From positions 1-33,805 of the forward strand of contig CANIVU010000098.1 of assembly GCA_947470805.1 (NCBI GenBank): 33,805 nucleotides of DNA. The letters run 5' to 3'. This DNA is from Acidobacteriota bacterium (GTDB lineage Bacteria; Acidobacteriota; Terriglobia; Bryobacterales; Bryobacteraceae). The notes beneath the pieces were generated by a model. That model was not told the origin of the DNA. It worked only from the letters and a program-made list of their open reading frames with translations, and made no database searches. The translations under genes were made by a program, and so were the position numbers. This document shows positions 12,434 to 17,423 of the stretch, piece after piece. Each line of letters opens with the position of its first letter. Position 1 is the first letter of the stretch.

Positions 12434-12472
12434 GGGCTTTGTTCACCACGATAGCGCGATAATCGAGTGAAT

Positions 12473-13588
12473 ATGTACCGATCGTGGTTGGAGGTATCGC
12501 TGAGCCAGATCGCCAGTAATTTCCGGGCCATCCGGAAGCTGGCCGGGAGCGGCGTGACGGTGATGCCCGTGGTGAAGGCCGACGCCTACCGGCATGGCGC
12601 CGTGGAAGTGTCGCGAGTGTTGGAGGAAGCCGGGGCGCGGTGGCTGGCCGTGTCGAACGTGCACGAAGGGATTGCCCTGCGGGAATCCGGAATGACCAGC
12701 CGTATCCTGGTGATGGCCGATTTTCTGCCCAGCAGCCGGCCGCTGTTTTTGGACTATGACCTGACGCCGGCCATCCATTCGCTCGAAGGCATCGCCGCCT
12801 ACGAGCAACTGGCTGCCGCCGCCGGCAAGACAGCGCCGTTCCATTTGAAGATCGACACGGGCATGGGACGCCTGGGCACGCGCGCCTCGGCGTCGGAGAT
12901 TCTGGACGCGCTCGCCCGGACCCGGGCGGCGCGGCTGGAAGGGCTGATGTCGCACTTCGCCTCGGCGCCGAACTATACGACGTCCCAGACCGATGAGCAG
13001 ATCGCCACCTTCACCGCCGTCCTGCAGCACCTGCGCAACGCCGGCGTGAACCCAACAATGGTCCACCTGTCCAGCACCGTGCCGCTGGCCTACGGGAGGA
13101 AGGAGGCCTGGGGCAACCTGGTGCGGCCCGGCCACGCTATATATGGATACATCTCCCCGGCCAAAGGCGCGTCGTCGCCCTGCCTATTGGAAGTGCATCC
13201 AGCGCTCAGCTGGAAGGCTACGGTGCTGGAGGTAAAGGACATCCCGGCCGGCGCGGCCATCGGCTACGGTGGCATCCACACCACCGGCCGCGAAACGCGC
13301 ATCGCCGTGCTGGGCGTTGGCTATGCCGATGGTTACCCGCACCGGCTGTCGAACAAGGGCAAGGTGCTGTTGCAGGGCCGCGCGGTGCCGGTGCTGGGCG
13401 CGGTGTCGATGGACCTCACCACCGTCGATGCCTCGGGCCTGGATGTGAAGCCCGGCGACGCGGCCACGCTCCTCGGCACCGATGGCGACGAATCGATCGA
13501 CGCGCAGCAGATCGCCAAACTCGCCGGCACCATCTCCTACTCCGTCCTCTGCGGAATCAGTTCCCGGGTGGTCCGGCTGTATGTGTAA
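12473..13588 (+). CDS. alr: alanine racemase
   Basis: A 371-residue PLP enzyme interconverting L- and D-alanine in the cytoplasm, supplying D-alanine for peptidoglycan. The PLP lysine is Lys35 in VVKADAYRHG; the usual Gly before HG is Arg here. Other conserved segments are KIDTGMGRLG, the SHFASA region, LVRPGHAIYGY, the second-base tyrosine Tyr265 in GYGGIHTT and LGAVSMDLTTVD. The ATG at 12473 is preferred; an in-frame GTG at 12467 would add two residues. No clear ribosome binding site is present, and a GATAAT hexamer at 12458-12463 lies so close that a leaderless transcript is possible. Its TAA stop (13586-13588) is followed one base later by the start codon of the isoleucine leader peptide, tying it to the amino acid biosynthesis genes downstream. 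Confidence 0.95.
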   Translation: MYRSWLEVSLSQIASNFRAIRKLAGSGVTVMPVVKADAYRHGAVEVSRVLEEAGARWLAVSNVHEGIALRESGMTSRILVMADFLPSSRPLFLDYDLTPAIHSLEGIAAYEQLAAAAGKTAPFHLKIDTGMGRLGTRASASEILDALARTRAARLEGLMSHFASAPNYTTSQTDEQIATFTAVLQHLRNAGVNPTMVHLSSTVPLAYGRKEAWGNLVRPGHAIYGYISPAKGASSPCLLEVHPALSWKATVLEVKDIPAGAAIGYGGIHTTGRETRIAVLGVGYADGYPHRLSNKGKVLLQGRAVPVLGAVSMDLTTVDASGLDVKPGDAATLLGTDGDESIDAQQIAKLAGTISYSVLCGISSRVVRLYV

Positions 13589-13589
13589 G

Positions 13590-13670
13590 ATGAGAGAAGT
13601 GAAGTTCGTTCCGCAAATTAGCAACGCACGTCTCGCGATGGCGATTATTATGATCGCCAATTCCGCCTGA
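13590..13670 (+). CDS. isoleucine-rich leader peptide (26 residues)
   Basis: A short frame from ATG 13590 to TGA 13668-13670, starting one base after the alanine racemase stop. Near its end it reads RLAMAIIMIANSA, with Ile codons at 13644, 13647 and 13653, plus a further one at 13617: four Ile among 26 residues. A second possible start is ATG 13638. It is followed by a terminator and the ACT/ilvA genes, the arrangement known for ilvL in enterobacteria. No strong ribosome binding site is visible, so translation may depend on ribosomes finishing the alanine racemase gene. The role in sensing charged tRNA-Ile is inferred from codon content and position. Confidence 0.75.
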   Translation: MREVKFVPQISNARLAMAIIMIANSA

Positions 13671-13711
13671 GCCTGCCTGCGAACGAACGCAATTTTCAAG
13701 GCCTCCGGTGG
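13640..13711 (+). promoter_or_regulatory. attenuator: leader hairpin and antiterminator of the ilv-type operon
   Basis: Two structures compete with the terminator downstream. GGCGAT (13640-13645) and ATCGCC (13653-13658) form a hairpin across the Ile codons. CCGCCTGAGCCT (13663-13674, containing the leader stop codon) can pair with GGCCTCCGGTGG (13700-13711) through eight Watson-Crick and two G-U pairs with two mismatches. That pairing would sequester the 5' arm of the terminator. A ribosome stalled at the first Ile codons leaves 13663-13674 free, favouring read-through, whereas one reaching the TGA covers it, favouring termination. Pairings are read directly; the mechanism is inferred. Confidence 0.7.
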
Positions 13712-13741
13712 ATCACCTTCCACCGGGGGCTTTTCTCTTTT
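13701..13741 (+). terminator. intrinsic terminator in the ilv-type leader
   Basis: GCCTCCGGTGG (13701-13711) pairs over all 11 positions, one of them G-U, with CCACCGGGGGC (13720-13730). The loop is ATCACCTT, and the hairpin is followed directly by TTTTCTCTTTT. It lies 27 bases before the start of the ACT-domain gene, so it would stop transcription before the structural genes. Confidence 0.93.
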
Positions 13742-13767
13742 ACGCCAACCAACCCGGAGACAAACTG

Positions 13768-13995
13768 ATGCTACAAACCGTGGAGATACTGCTGGAAAAT
13801 AAGCCGGGCGCGTTGATGCGCGCCGTCGGGGTGATTACGGCGAAGGGTTCTAATATCGCGTCGCTCACTGTGGCGCCGGATGCGGAGCAGCCCGGGTTGG
13901 CGCGGGTGCGGATGGTGGCCGACGTGGAAGAACGGTTGCATGACCGGGTGTTGAAAGAGTTGAACCGGCTGGTGCAGGTGGTGAAGGCGTGGTAA
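13768..13995 (+). CDS. IlvM/IlvN-like ACT-domain protein
   Basis: A 75-residue single ACT domain. The pattern LLENKPGALMRAVGV, then GSNIASLTVAP and a C-terminal LKELNRLVQVVKAW, matches the N-terminal ACT domain of acetolactate synthase regulatory subunits (IlvH/IlvN) and the short enterobacterial IlvM. It would bind a branched-chain amino acid and regulate a partner enzyme. The start is ATG 13768, preceded by CGGAGA seven bases upstream; an upstream in-frame reading from 13708 would run through the terminator hairpin and is rejected. It overlaps the threonine dehydratase start by 7 bases. No acetolactate synthase large subunit is nearby, so the partner may be encoded elsewhere or be the adjacent threonine dehydratase. 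Confidence 0.88.
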   Translation: MLQTVEILLENKPGALMRAVGVITAKGSNIASLTVAPDAEQPGLARVRMVADVEERLHDRVLKELNRLVQVVKAW

Positions 13996-15185
13996 CGCTG
14001 CAGCAGATCGAAGCCGCCACGGCGCGGATCCGCGGGGAAATCTACGTCTCGCCGTTGGTGCATTCCAAGGCGTTGTCGGCGTTGTCCGGCAACGAGATCT
14101 ACCTCAAGTTGGACAACCTGCAAATGACGGGTTCGTTCAAGGAGCGCGGCGCGCTGAACCGCATTCTCACATTGACCGATGCCGAAAAAGCCCGCGGCGT
14201 GGTGGCCGCCTCCGCCGGCAACCATGGCCAGGCGGTGGCCTATCACGCCACCCGGCGCGGCATTCGCGCGCAGATCTGGATGCCGCGCTATACGCCATTG
14301 GTGAAGCTCTCGGCCACGCGCAACTACGGCGGCGATGTGGTGCTGCACGGCAACAGTTATGACGAGGCTTTCGAAGGCGCCATCGCCCAGGACGCCGCGT
14401 TCGTCCATGCGTTCGATGATGAAGCTGTCATCGCCGGGCAGGGATCGCTGGGCCTGGAGATGTTGGACCAAAACCCGGAGCTGGACGTGATCGTCACCTC
14501 CATCGGCGGCGGCGGTCTGGCCTCCGGCGTGGCCTGCGCGGCGAAGGGGCGGAAGCCATCGATCGAAGTCGTCGGCGTACAGACGTCCCGCCTGCCGTCC
14601 ATGGTGGCGGCCCTCGCCGAAGGGGCGCCGGTGCGCGTCGCGGCCGGGTCCACACTCGCTGATGGTATCGCCGTGCGCAAAGCCGGCGGCTTCACGCTGC
14701 CCATGGTGCGCGAGTATGTCGATAACGTCGTCACCGTGGACGAAGGCGACATCGCCGCCGCCATCCTCTATCTGCTGGAGCGCGAAAAGACGCTGGCCGA
14801 AGGCGCCGGGGCCATCGGCGTCGCGGCCGTGCTGCAAGGGCTCACCGGGCACCGCGGGAAGAAGATCTGCGTCATCGTCAGCGGCGGAAATCTGGACGTG
14901 ACCCTGTTGGCCCGCATCATCGAACAAGGCATGGTGCGCGACGGCCGCCGCCTGCGCGTGCGCGTGACGCTGCCCGATTACCCCGGCGCGCTGGAAGGCC
15001 TGGCCGCGCGCATCGCCGCCGCCGGCGCCAACATTGTCGAAACCCTCCACAACCGCGCCCACTACGGCGTCAGCCTCACCGAGACCGCTATCGACATCAC
15101 CATGGAAACGCGCGGGCGCGAACATGCCACCGAAATCCTGGCCGCCCTTAGCGCAGCCGCCTACGAGTTCACCATGGTGGAATAA
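13989..15185 (+). CDS. ilvA: threonine ammonia-lyase (threonine dehydratase) with C-terminal ACT domain
   Basis: A 398-residue PLP enzyme converting L-threonine to 2-oxobutanoate and ammonia, the committed step of isoleucine synthesis from threonine. The PLP lysine is Lys51 in the motif SFKERGA. ASAGNHGQAVAY forms the substrate loop and IGGGGLASG the phosphate-binding glycine loop. Residues about 318-398 (RVRVTLPDYPGALEGLAARI) are a single ACT-like domain, as in the shorter TdcB/clostridial-type enzymes rather than the two-domain E. coli IlvA. The GTG start overlaps the upstream ACT gene by 7 bases, implying translational coupling. Placement behind an isoleucine-codon attenuator supports a biosynthetic over a catabolic role. 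The gene name is assigned from that context. Confidence 0.93.
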   Translation: MVTLQQIEAATARIRGEIYVSPLVHSKALSALSGNEIYLKLDNLQMTGSFKERGALNRILTLTDAEKARGVVAASAGNHGQAVAYHATRRGIRAQIWMPRYTPLVKLSATRNYGGDVVLHGNSYDEAFEGAIAQDAAFVHAFDDEAVIAGQGSLGLEMLDQNPELDVIVTSIGGGGLASGVACAAKGRKPSIEVVGVQTSRLPSMVAALAEGAPVRVAAGSTLADGIAVRKAGGFTLPMVREYVDNVVTVDEGDIAAAILYLLEREKTLAEGAGAIGVAAVLQGLTGHRGKKICVIVSGGNLDVTLLARIIEQGMVRDGRRLRVRVTLPDYPGALEGLAARIAAAGANIVETLHNRAHYGVSLTETAIDITMETRGREHATEILAALSAAAYEFTMVE

Positions 15186-15245
15186 ATTTCTCCCCCCCGC
15201 GACCCCTTTCCAGAAAACCCGCATCCCCAATGACAGGAGGAATCT

Positions 15246-16868
15246 ATGAAGATTCTGAGTCTCGTCATGATGACGGCTGTAGGCGCAACAGCCTGGGCGC
15301 AAGGGTGGAAGGTAATCGGGTGGAACGACCTGGGCATGCATTGTGTGGATGGAAAGGATTACTCCATTTATTCCATCCTGCCCCCCTTCAACACCTTCCA
15401 TGCGCAGGTGGTGAACAGCTCCGGCAAGCTGGTGAAATCCGGCGTCACCCTGACCTATCAGGCGGTAGCCGATTCCACCGGCTCCATCAACAAAACCTCC
15501 GTCGGCAAGACCACCTTCTGGCAATTCGCCCAGCCGCTCTACGGCGCCGCGCTTGCGCCTGATAAAGGCCTCGCCGGCTTCGCCATGCCCGGTGCCGCCA
15601 ATACCCCGCAGCGCATGCGCTTCGATTCCCCCTTCGCCTGGTTCACTGGCGAAGGCGTCCCCATCCTCCCCTATGACGACAAGGGCAAAAAGAACTTCTA
15701 CCCCATGATGCGCCTCACCGCGCGCAACACGGCCGGCACCGCGCTCGCCTTCACCGACATCGTCCTGCCCGTCTCCGACGAAATGAACTGCCTGGCCTGC
15801 CACGCCTCCGGCTCCACCAGCACCGCGCGCCCCGACGCCGGCTGGGCCTTCCTCACCGATCCGGAAAAGGACTACAAGCGCAACGTCCTCCGCCTGCACG
15901 ATGAGCGCGAAGCCAACAACCCCACCTTCCGCAACGCGCTCGCCAAAGTCGGCCTGAACCTCGCCGGCCTCTCCGCCACCGTCGACGCCGGCCGCCCCGT
16001 TCTCTGCGCGTCCTGCCACGGTTCCAACGCCCTCCCCGGCACCGGCATCGCCGGCATCGGCCCGCTCACCAAGGCCATCCACACCCGCCATGCCAACGTC
16101 GTCGATCCCACCAACTTCCTCACGCTCGACGCCGCCAACAACCGCTCCGCCTGCTACCGCTGCCACCCCGGCTCGGAAACAAAATGTCTCCGCGGCGCCA
16201 TGGGCAATGCCACCCAGCCTGACGGCACCATGACCATGCAGTGCCAAAGCTGCCACGGCAACATGAGCGCCGTCGGCGCCTCCAACCGCAACGGCTGGCT
16301 GCAGGAGCCCTCCTGCCAGAACTGCCACACCGGCACGGCCGTCAAGAACAACGGGCAAATCCGCTACACCGAAGCCTCCGTTGGCGGCGCCCCGCGCGTC
16401 CCCGTGGACCGTACCTTCGCCACCAACGCCAACGTGCCCGTTGCCGGTTCCGATCTGTACCGCTTCTCCAAGGGCCACGGCGGTCTGCAGTGTTCGGCCT
16501 GCCACGGCTCCACCCACGCCGAGTTCCCCAGCTCCCATGTGAACGATAACGTCCAGTCCATCAAACTGCAGGGCTACGCCGGCACGGTTGCCGAATGTTC
16601 CGCCTGCCACTCCACGGTTCCCTCCACGGTCACCGGCGGCCCCCACGGCCTCCATCCCATCGGCCAGAGCTGGGTCGGCAAACACGGCGATGCCGCCGAA
16701 AAGAATGCCGCCCAATGTCAGGCTTGCCACGGTGTCGATTACCGCGGCACCGTCCTATCCGCCACCCGCACCGCGCGCAGCTTCCAAACCGAACGCGGTA
16801 CGAAAACGTTCGCCAAGGGAACGCAAGTTACCTGCTACCAGTGCCACAACGGCCCTCACGGCGGGTAA
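15246..16868 (+). CDS. periplasmic nonahaem c-type cytochrome
   Basis: A 540-residue exported cytochrome. Signal peptide MKILSLVMMTAVGATAWA; AGGAGG six bases before the ATG. After a haem-free first third (which contains VIGWNDLGMHCVDGKDYS, a sequence also familiar from multihaem cytochromes of metal-reducing bacteria) come nine CxxCH motifs: CLACH (182), CASCH, CYRCH, CQSCH, CQNCH, CSACH, CSACH, CQACH and CYQCH ending at the C-terminus. It would carry electrons in the periplasm or at the cell surface; electron donor and acceptor are unknown. It is transcribed alone and converges on an ECF sigma gene with 3 bases between the stop codons. Its terminator lies inside the sigma gene. Confidence 0.92.
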   Translation: MKILSLVMMTAVGATAWAQGWKVIGWNDLGMHCVDGKDYSIYSILPPFNTFHAQVVNSSGKLVKSGVTLTYQAVADSTGSINKTSVGKTTFWQFAQPLYGAALAPDKGLAGFAMPGAANTPQRMRFDSPFAWFTGEGVPILPYDDKGKKNFYPMMRLTARNTAGTALAFTDIVLPVSDEMNCLACHASGSTSTARPDAGWAFLTDPEKDYKRNVLRLHDEREANNPTFRNALAKVGLNLAGLSATVDAGRPVLCASCHGSNALPGTGIAGIGPLTKAIHTRHANVVDPTNFLTLDAANNRSACYRCHPGSETKCLRGAMGNATQPDGTMTMQCQSCHGNMSAVGASNRNGWLQEPSCQNCHTGTAVKNNGQIRYTEASVGGAPRVPVDRTFATNANVPVAGSDLYRFSKGHGGLQCSACHGSTHAEFPSSHVNDNVQSIKLQGYAGTVAECSACHSTVPSTVTGGPHGLHPIGQSWVGKHGDAAEKNAAQCQACHGVDYRGTVLSATRTARSFQTERGTKTFAKGTQVTCYQCHNGPHGG

Positions 16869-16871
16869 AAC

Positions 16872-17423
16872 TTACACAACGCGCCCGGCCAGCTGTTCAT
16901 GAATCGCTTGCCGGGCGCGTTTCAATCTGCCTTTCACCGCCTCTGCGCTGATGCCTACAACCTCGGCCGTTTCCTCCGTCGTCATGCCCTCCACCGTCCG
17001 CAACAGGAACACCATCAACTGCTCCTCCGGCAGGTGCGCCACCGCCGCGTAGAACTGCCGGATCGTCGCGCCGTTTTCCATGCAACGCGCAAGGAAAGCG
17101 GTCTCGATATGCGGGTCGATCGAAACCTCCCGCGGCGCCGTTTTATTGGCCCCCCGCCGCTTCATCATGCAAACATTGCGGGCGATCCGGAACGCCCAAG
17201 GGCGCAGCCTCGACGGCTCCCGCAACTCGCTGATGTGGTCGTGCAGCTTCAGCAGCGTGTCCTGCACCACCTCCTCGGCGTCTTCCCGCTGCCGGCAAAT
17301 CAGCAGGCTGTAGTGCAGCAGCCGGCGGCCAAAGGCGATGGCAAATTCCTCAAACGCCGCTGCGTCTCCATTGCGGATGCGCTCGGCCAGCTGGATCTCG
17401 CGGGCTTGATCGAGCTTGGACAT
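16872..17423 (-). CDS. ECF-family RNA polymerase sigma factor
   Basis: A 183-residue sigma-70 family protein of the extracytoplasmic-function type. Region 2 is around residues 35-85: [23 protein letters not shown], then [16 protein letters not shown] with basic residues behind it. Region 4 is around 125-175, with [41 protein letters not shown] as helix-turn-helix. There is no region 3, as expected. No anti-sigma factor lies next to it: the neighbours are a cytochrome (convergent) and an oxidoreductase (divergent, 55 bases away). Its target promoters cannot be inferred. The last codons overlap a hairpin that probably terminates the cytochrome transcript. Confidence 0.92.
16880..16924 (+). terminator. 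terminator of the cytochrome gene, inside the sigma factor coding region
   Basis: CGCGCCCGGC (16880-16889) and GCCGGGCGCG (16910-16919) form a perfect 10-bp stem with a 20-base loop, followed on the plus strand by TTTC. It begins 12 bases after the cytochrome stop and lies entirely within the 3' end of the convergent sigma gene. The U-run is short. Confidence 0.6.

Follow-up and report, generated by a model that had tools for sequence, protein, structure and literature searches.

The locus studied here raises the question of why a short reading frame with clustered isoleucine codons should lie, together with a strong terminator, between the end of an alanine racemase gene and the start of a stand-alone ACT gene followed by ilvA, and which of these genes it serves. 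It was found in an acidobacterial contig of 33,805 nucleotides (hereafter the window) from an 8.7-Mb genome assembled into 220 contigs. We consider it very probable that the element is an isoleucine-specific, ribosome-mediated transcription attenuator controlling the ACT gene and the ilvA behind it. This reading was first proposed in the initial annotation of the sequence and is well supported by comparison with relatives, in which the frame, the codons, the terminator and the alternative pairing are all kept.

The leader frame (13590..13670, forward strand, as are all features of the leader) runs from ATG 13590-13592 to the stop TGA 13668-13670 and encodes the peptide MREVKFVPQISNARLAMAIIMIANSA. 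Its start codon is uncertain: the 26 codons originally proposed hold if translation begins at ATG 13590, but GTG 13599, which by eye aligns with the GTG start of relative L006, would give 23, and no convincing ribosome-binding site was found for either ATG 13590 or GTG 13599. Directly 5' of the leader lies alr (12467..13588, forward strand; TIGR00492, 316.2 bits against a cut-off of 168), whose stop codon is 1 nt before ATG 13590 (TAAGATG, 13586-13592), so that in the lineage of the window translation of the leader could be coupled to that of alr. The two are possibly co-transcribed. No sigma-70-like promoter was found in 12500-17000. The control codons ATT ATT ATG ATC (Ile Ile Met Ile, 13644..13655) stand near the end of the frame. 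The three Ile codons first reported are indeed there (13644-46 and 13647-49, both ATT, and 13653-55, ATC, with one Met between), although they occupy three of four codons, not of five; in relatives, Ile occupies codons -5 to -7 counted from the stop. Codon 10 is a fourth Ile, outside the cluster. Three of the four Ile codons in the leader are ATT, while six genes of the window use ATC 158 times, ATT 18 times and ATA twice. The window has a single frame with three Ile in five codons and a strong terminator behind it, against none in 40 first-order Markov sequences, and the folding of 13590-13745 has a z of -4.73 against 200 shuffles. No Rfam leader or T-box family matched the window at its gathering score, the best sub-threshold match over the leader being His_leader (20.9 bits; cut-off, 49).

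The cluster codons sit inside a hairpin that was absent from the initial annotation (13639..13659; 13639-13645 with 13653-13659, and outer pairs 13635-13637 with 13664-13666), which we call the strand-1 hairpin. Strand 2 of the antiterminator (13662..13674) spans the leader stop codon and pairs with strand 3 (13699..13712), which is also the 5' arm of the intrinsic terminator (13698..13739; 13698-13712 with 13719-13733, then a T-rich tract). The terminator, previously described as a perfect 11-bp stem, is present, but in the fold it has 15 pairs (13697-13735 at -28.8 kcal/mol), and the 11 first counted include one G-U. Likewise, the alternative pairing reported between 13663-13674 and 13700-13711 exists, but its extent is 13662-13674 with 13699-13712 and it contains mismatches; the fold of 13660-13713 has -20.5 kcal/mol. 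Apart from these structures, the early leader (13604-13615) can pair with 13678-13688 just past the leader stop, and a similar long-range pairing seems possible, by eye, in L006 and L007.

The switch would operate as follows. When Ile-tRNA is ample, the ribosome would reach the stop at 13668 and cover strand 2, the terminator (13698-13733) would form and transcription would stop short of the ACT gene. A shortage of Ile-tRNA would make the ribosome stall at codon 19 or 20, or less effectively at codon 22; strand 2 would then pair with strand 3 ahead of the synthesis of strand 4, and the polymerase would read through. We folded the leader with a masked ribosome, whose footprint was assumed to be the first base of the A-site codon plus 12 nt. 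In these folds the pairing of strands 2 and 3 is full for stalls at codons 19-21, drops to about 60% at Ile 22 and to about a quarter at codon 23, and is absent from codon 24 on. The other nine leaders tested, and the median of 50 leaders found before ilvB, lose this pairing over codons -7 to -3 before the stop; two of the nine, L006 and L045, show a further dip for stalls farther upstream. At equilibrium, every fold that includes strand 4 contains the terminator, and in the model the 2:3 pairing is present in the untranslated leader; timing must therefore decide the outcome. The features of a ribosome-mediated attenuator are thus found in a codon-clustered short frame, an intrinsic terminator, an exclusive antiterminator and the placement of the control codons, while translation of the frame is predicted. 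The anatomy, its conservation, compensatory changes and a codon position that fits the switch point all came out of the computation; stalling, termination and read-through in the cell, and the response to isoleucine, are what we infer from the sequences.

The genes downstream are not those that the enterobacterial precedent would suggest. The first (13768..13995, forward strand), whose start codon lies about 35 nt past the terminator hairpin, encodes a stand-alone ACT protein of 75 aa and AHAS-small-subunit type: it scores 45.1 bits against PF22629, above the cut-off of 27, and 54.7 against TIGR00119, the model of the whole AHAS small subunit, below its cut-off of 56.9. It had been named IlvM-like, a label that has to be replaced, as the protein is closest by sequence to the first domain of IlvN/IlvH, aligns with that domain of the solved AHAS small subunits 2pc6 and 2f1f, and has no IlvM-named model among its 10 NCBIfam matches (E up to 0.1). 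The frames searched around it contain no AHAS large subunit (a catalytic ilvG). The function of the ACT protein is presumed from these resemblances. In a tree of 30 short sequences nine stand-alone ACT proteins cluster with a support of 0.95 (those of L211 and L183 were left out), which is weak evidence because only 75 positions are available. The second gene is ilvA (13989..15185, forward strand), a threonine ammonia-lyase of 398 aa with one C-terminal ACT (TIGR01127, 463.2 bits against a cut-off of 378.75), and directly 3' of it follows a multi-haem cytochrome-like gene (15246-16868) that matches MtrC/MtrF-like and cytochrome c7/c3 profiles.

To see how far the arrangement extends, the ACT gene was searched in 237 genomes of the family, 204 of which had a match (E up to 1e-8); among those listed, most were full-length IlvN. 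Together with a second search, in 10 genomes, this gave at least 10 stand-alone ACT loci. An Ile-cluster leader precedes seven of these 10 ACT genes, four in the genus of the window (L001, L004, L005 and L006) and three in as many other genera (L007, L008 and L045). Two further leaders, of G158 and G159 (MSLNRIVIQNAAIIIAAPV and MSFNRIVIRNAAIIIAAPV), precede a second IlvN-like gene, of about 170 aa, with no ilvB in the 5.4 kb around that of G158; the genus of these two genomes is the fifth in which Ile-cluster leaders occur. Other genera keep the frame, the Ile cluster, the terminator and the alternative pairing. At codons -8 to -5 of nine Ile-type leaders, Ile takes 26 of 36 places, Ala, Met or His the rest, and Val or Leu none. 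L005 has His at one position of the cluster, and L001, L004 and L005 carry an extra in-frame codon within it, in the loop of the hairpin. The initial annotation had named loss of the Ile codons with retention of the terminator among the observations that would speak against it. This was seen at one ACT locus in 10, L009, where the hairpin and a short terminator-like stretch are kept and Met-Asn-Val replaces the Ile cluster; upstream of the ACT genes of L029 and L211 no leader was found at all.

Outside the family the Ile-type leader was not recovered. A model built on it (R1, whose E-values, like those of the ilvB-leader model R2 described below, are rough) gave eight loci in the class at E up to 1e-4 and seven in the phylum at E up to 1e-6, none of which showed a BCAA leader on inspection; they consist mostly of coding sequence or of a terminator by itself, and five from the phylum search resemble, by eye, a 5S rRNA with a terminator behind it. 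Since these loci are not leaders, the Ile-type leader is seen only in the family, with 399 genomes of the class and 396 of the phylum sampled. Within the family, 24 R1 loci were inspected: 10 are not leaders (L047, L049, L055, L056, L059, L063 and L065-L068) and nine are weak matches before ilvB.

Such conservation could be read differently, with the hairpin 13639-13659 itself, bound as RNA by a protein or a ligand, as the conserved element and the Ile codons as its by-product. The inner helix and the loop are nearly invariant in nine leaders, ATT ATT ATC included, and L009 retains the hairpin with Met-Asn-Val instead of Ile, as this explanation would have it. However, the extra loop codon of L001, L004 and L005 preserves the reading frame, the region of the stop codon pairs with the terminator arm, and the sibling leaders before ilvB lack the hairpin sequence and yet have Ile and Val codons at like positions. 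We therefore regard a hairpin recognized as such as quite improbable, and attenuation by a translating ribosome as the better account of the same sequences.

Attenuation also predicts that the arms of each pairing evolve together. We aligned nine Ile-type leaders, with structures drawn from the same sequences, which favours them, and with permutation tests in which relatedness among the leaders is uncorrected. In the 1:2 hairpin the inner helix is 100% paired and two of its seven pairs differ in both partners; the outer four pairs are 75% paired. Seven of the 14 terminator pairs are changed on both sides, a number reached by two of 500 shuffles, and no shuffle reached the score, although the terminator slid by one column scores slightly higher (0.294 vs 0.284). 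The covariation of the 2:3 pairing is weak in this alignment (two of 10 pairs, matched by 61 of 500 shuffles, with the score matched by 15 of 500). Swapping arms between genomes is a better test than covariation in an alignment. Among ten Ile-type leaders, including L048 of cimA, strand 2 pairs with its own partner at -18.45 kcal/mol on average versus -15.49 kcal/mol for all combinations (permutation value 0.0001); with seven non-redundant leaders the values are -18.06 and -15.33 (permutation value 0.0017), and shuffling strand 2 gives -14.3 (sd 3.95). For 50 ilvB leaders, own arms pair at -23.51 versus -21.00 kcal/mol, and none of 20,000 permutations was as low.

These ilvB leaders and the leader of the window are part of a wider set in the group, alike in build, of which the latter is the Ile-only, ACT-linked branch. 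A BCAA-rich (Ile/Val) frame with a terminator was found in 51 of 53 regions upstream of ilvB (L080, in the window's own genome, G000:C84, and L086-L137), by a script that takes the frame richest in Ile, Leu and Val and hence favours the leader reading; L093 and L100, where no leader was found, are counted as misses. The expectation of a lone compact variant did not survive this result, as nearly the whole family has leaders of this build in front of ilvB. In the ilvB leaders, the last seven bases ahead of the stop codon (CCCCGCC in most) form pairs with the arm of the terminator (GGCGGGG in most). In the best register all seven pairs form in 33 of the 51 leaders and at least six in 47, counting L105, whose hairpin was set by hand for this count and which is excluded from the 50-leader sets. 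Six of the seven positions show changes in both arms; the seventh does so in L098 alone, where the register is doubtful. A control based on counts is weak: 22 variant ilvB leaders have 6.1 pairs with their own arm and 5.7 with those of others. As for the codons, Val stands at -7 (0.88) and -5 (0.74), and Ile is commonest at -6 and at -9 to -11.

The ilvB leaders also reach further than the Ile type. The model R2 was built from 33 sequences of alignment A4, those used of the 46 remaining once L097, L098, L105, L111, L116 and over-long stretches had been excluded. It matched 107 of 399 genomes of the class at E up to 1e-4. By group, and assuming that the list of misses is ordered by kinship, these are 96 of 101 genomes in the family, six of the 14 from a sister family within the order, and five of 284 elsewhere. 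We inspected 26 of the R2 loci: 19 are before ilvB (nine of them outside the family; that of L197 has no start codon found by the script), four before cimA-like genes, two before ilvA and one before a stand-alone ACT gene. The cimA-like genes with leaders of this build are L048, which came from R1, and L181, L186, L187 and L189; their leaders are rich in Ile, with Leu or Val also close to the cluster in three of the five. Scores above the TIGR00977 cut-off were obtained for the cimA of L084 and for that of the window's own genome, which is located behind ilvC. The single ACT gene reached in this way (L183, G120:C18) is of a divergent second kind, and its leader is MSGVCARATVVLLLNNIAIPVITIRGPA.

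The pairings of the ilvB leaders bear on a second alternative, by which the leader would work mainly through coupling, through Rho or on translation of the ACT gene, with the intrinsic terminator not acting as the switch. Codon-rich leaders need not be classical attenuators: in the Streptomyces coelicolor ilvB leader, codon changes are reported to have been without effect (PMC1262725). In the window, the end of the leader can pair with the 5' arm of a strong intrinsic terminator, the ilvB leaders show compensatory changes in the corresponding pairing, and the ACT start lies past the hairpin at the distance given above. We hold this mode of action to be very improbable here. That the element is a plain alr terminator with a chance frame ahead of it is extremely improbable, because, although it does lie directly behind alr in the window, L006, L007, L008 and L045 keep leader and terminator next to an upstream gene that is not alr (in the stretches read), and the Markov controls never produced the combination.

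If the element is an attenuator, one may ask which gene is its client. Full-length relatives of the window's ilvA are present in 12 of 19 genomes of the genus, and in four of them the ACT gene stands in front. The other eight ilvA genes are 62-88% identical, and their genomes have no stand-alone ACT match (matches are of IlvN length or there are none). An Ile-cluster frame was found before none of these eight genes (479-624 nt upstream, same genus, one rule), while the identical rule detected the leader at three of the four ilvA genes with ACT, that of G097 being missed because His and Met break its cluster. From the side of the ACT gene, five of the ten loci precede ilvA and all five have a leader. 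Among four ACT loci without an adjacent ilvA, G231 has an Ile leader, L009 an altered one and two have none; at L007 the leader is present and the sequence then ends in an assembly gap. Therefore, ilvA alone brings no such leader, and ACT brings it often, not always. The view of ilvA as the main client is hard to maintain when eight ACT-less ilvA genes lack the leader and one is present before the ACT gene of G231, which has no adjacent ilvA. Still, ilvA can have a leader of its own, as L191 (G124:C30) and L206 (G122:C178) show in another genus, where a leader with two Ile codons and a terminator directly precedes ilvA with no ACT gene.

In enterobacteria, the ilvL attenuator controls ilvGMEDA, a set of isoleucine pathway genes that includes ilvA, and IlvM, which serves AHAS II as its small subunit, consists of one short ACT domain. 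The leader of the window resembles ilvL in its frame with branched-chain codons, in the competition between an antiterminator and an intrinsic terminator, and in having ilvA downstream. It differs in that its control codons are Ile only, that no ilvG, ilvE or ilvD follows and that the ACT protein resembles IlvN/IlvH; indeed, the gene order is not that of ilvGMEDA, with the ACT gene and ilvA followed by the cytochrome-like gene. Similarly, the ACT protein is like IlvM in having just one short ACT domain, akin to those of acetolactate synthase small subunits, but matches best the first domain of IlvN/IlvH and has no gene for a catalytic subunit adjoining. By analogy, the window attenuator would act in the mode of the classical ribosome-mediated ones, and we take its likeness to ilvL as one of build, without claiming descent.

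Leader-peptide attenuators outside Proteobacteria, which had been thought to make the locus unusual, are not a novelty in themselves, since they have been described in Actinobacteria and Firmicutes (PMC1262725, PMC2965389). The ilvBNC leaders of Actinobacteria, for which a three-hairpin model exists in Corynebacterium glutamicum (PMC11857589), also have a short frame rich in Ile, Val and Leu with a terminator and an antiterminator before ilvB, a description that the sibling ilvB leaders fit; they differ from the leader of the window by their phylum, and in that the latter is Ile-specific and precedes ACT and ilvA. Among the openly accessible papers listed in our literature searches, none describes leaders like ours. 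The element appears to be a classical attenuator that is new in its client and undescribed in Acidobacteriota. What is new is the phylum, so far as searched, a stand-alone AHAS-type ACT gene under Ile-only control, and a set of sibling leaders whose codons fit their clients. The leader set thereby gains clients and a likely signal, with codons that fit the branch of the pathway: Ile without Val before ACT and ilvA, and Ile with Val before ilvB.

Why an ACT gene should be placed under Ile-only control is a matter on which we can only offer a tentative and rather doubtful proposal: leader and ACT gene would form a module against the isoleucine starvation induced by valine, with the ACT protein and IlvB making a valine-insensitive acetolactate synthase. 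Excess valine would inhibit IlvBN, and charged Ile-tRNA would fall while Val-tRNA stays charged, a situation in which an Ile-only leader would permit read-through. An IlvN-like subunit without the second domain would then be made and bind IlvB, and ilvA would supply 2-ketobutyrate. The first small-subunit domain alone activates E. coli AHAS III. If the ACT subunit did alter valine feedback, this would amount to a starvation-controlled remodelling of an allosteric enzyme. Two hints point in this direction. The control codons of ACT-type leaders are Ile without Val, Val being prominent in ilvB leaders. Also, at position 11 of the ACT domain, the residue of which presumably contacts valine, eight of 10 stand-alone ACT proteins have Asp where 19 of 19 IlvN have Asn; the protein of the window and that of L211 keep Asn. 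L211 (G206), the tenth stand-alone ACT gene, has neither a leader nor, in the 2.4 kb read, an ilvA, and together with its Asn this weakens both the link of the leader to ACT and the Asp signature, so that our confidence in valine insensitivity was set low. At position 28, nine of 10 stand-alone ACT proteins have Ser or Ala, versus Tyr or Phe in all 19 IlvN examined.
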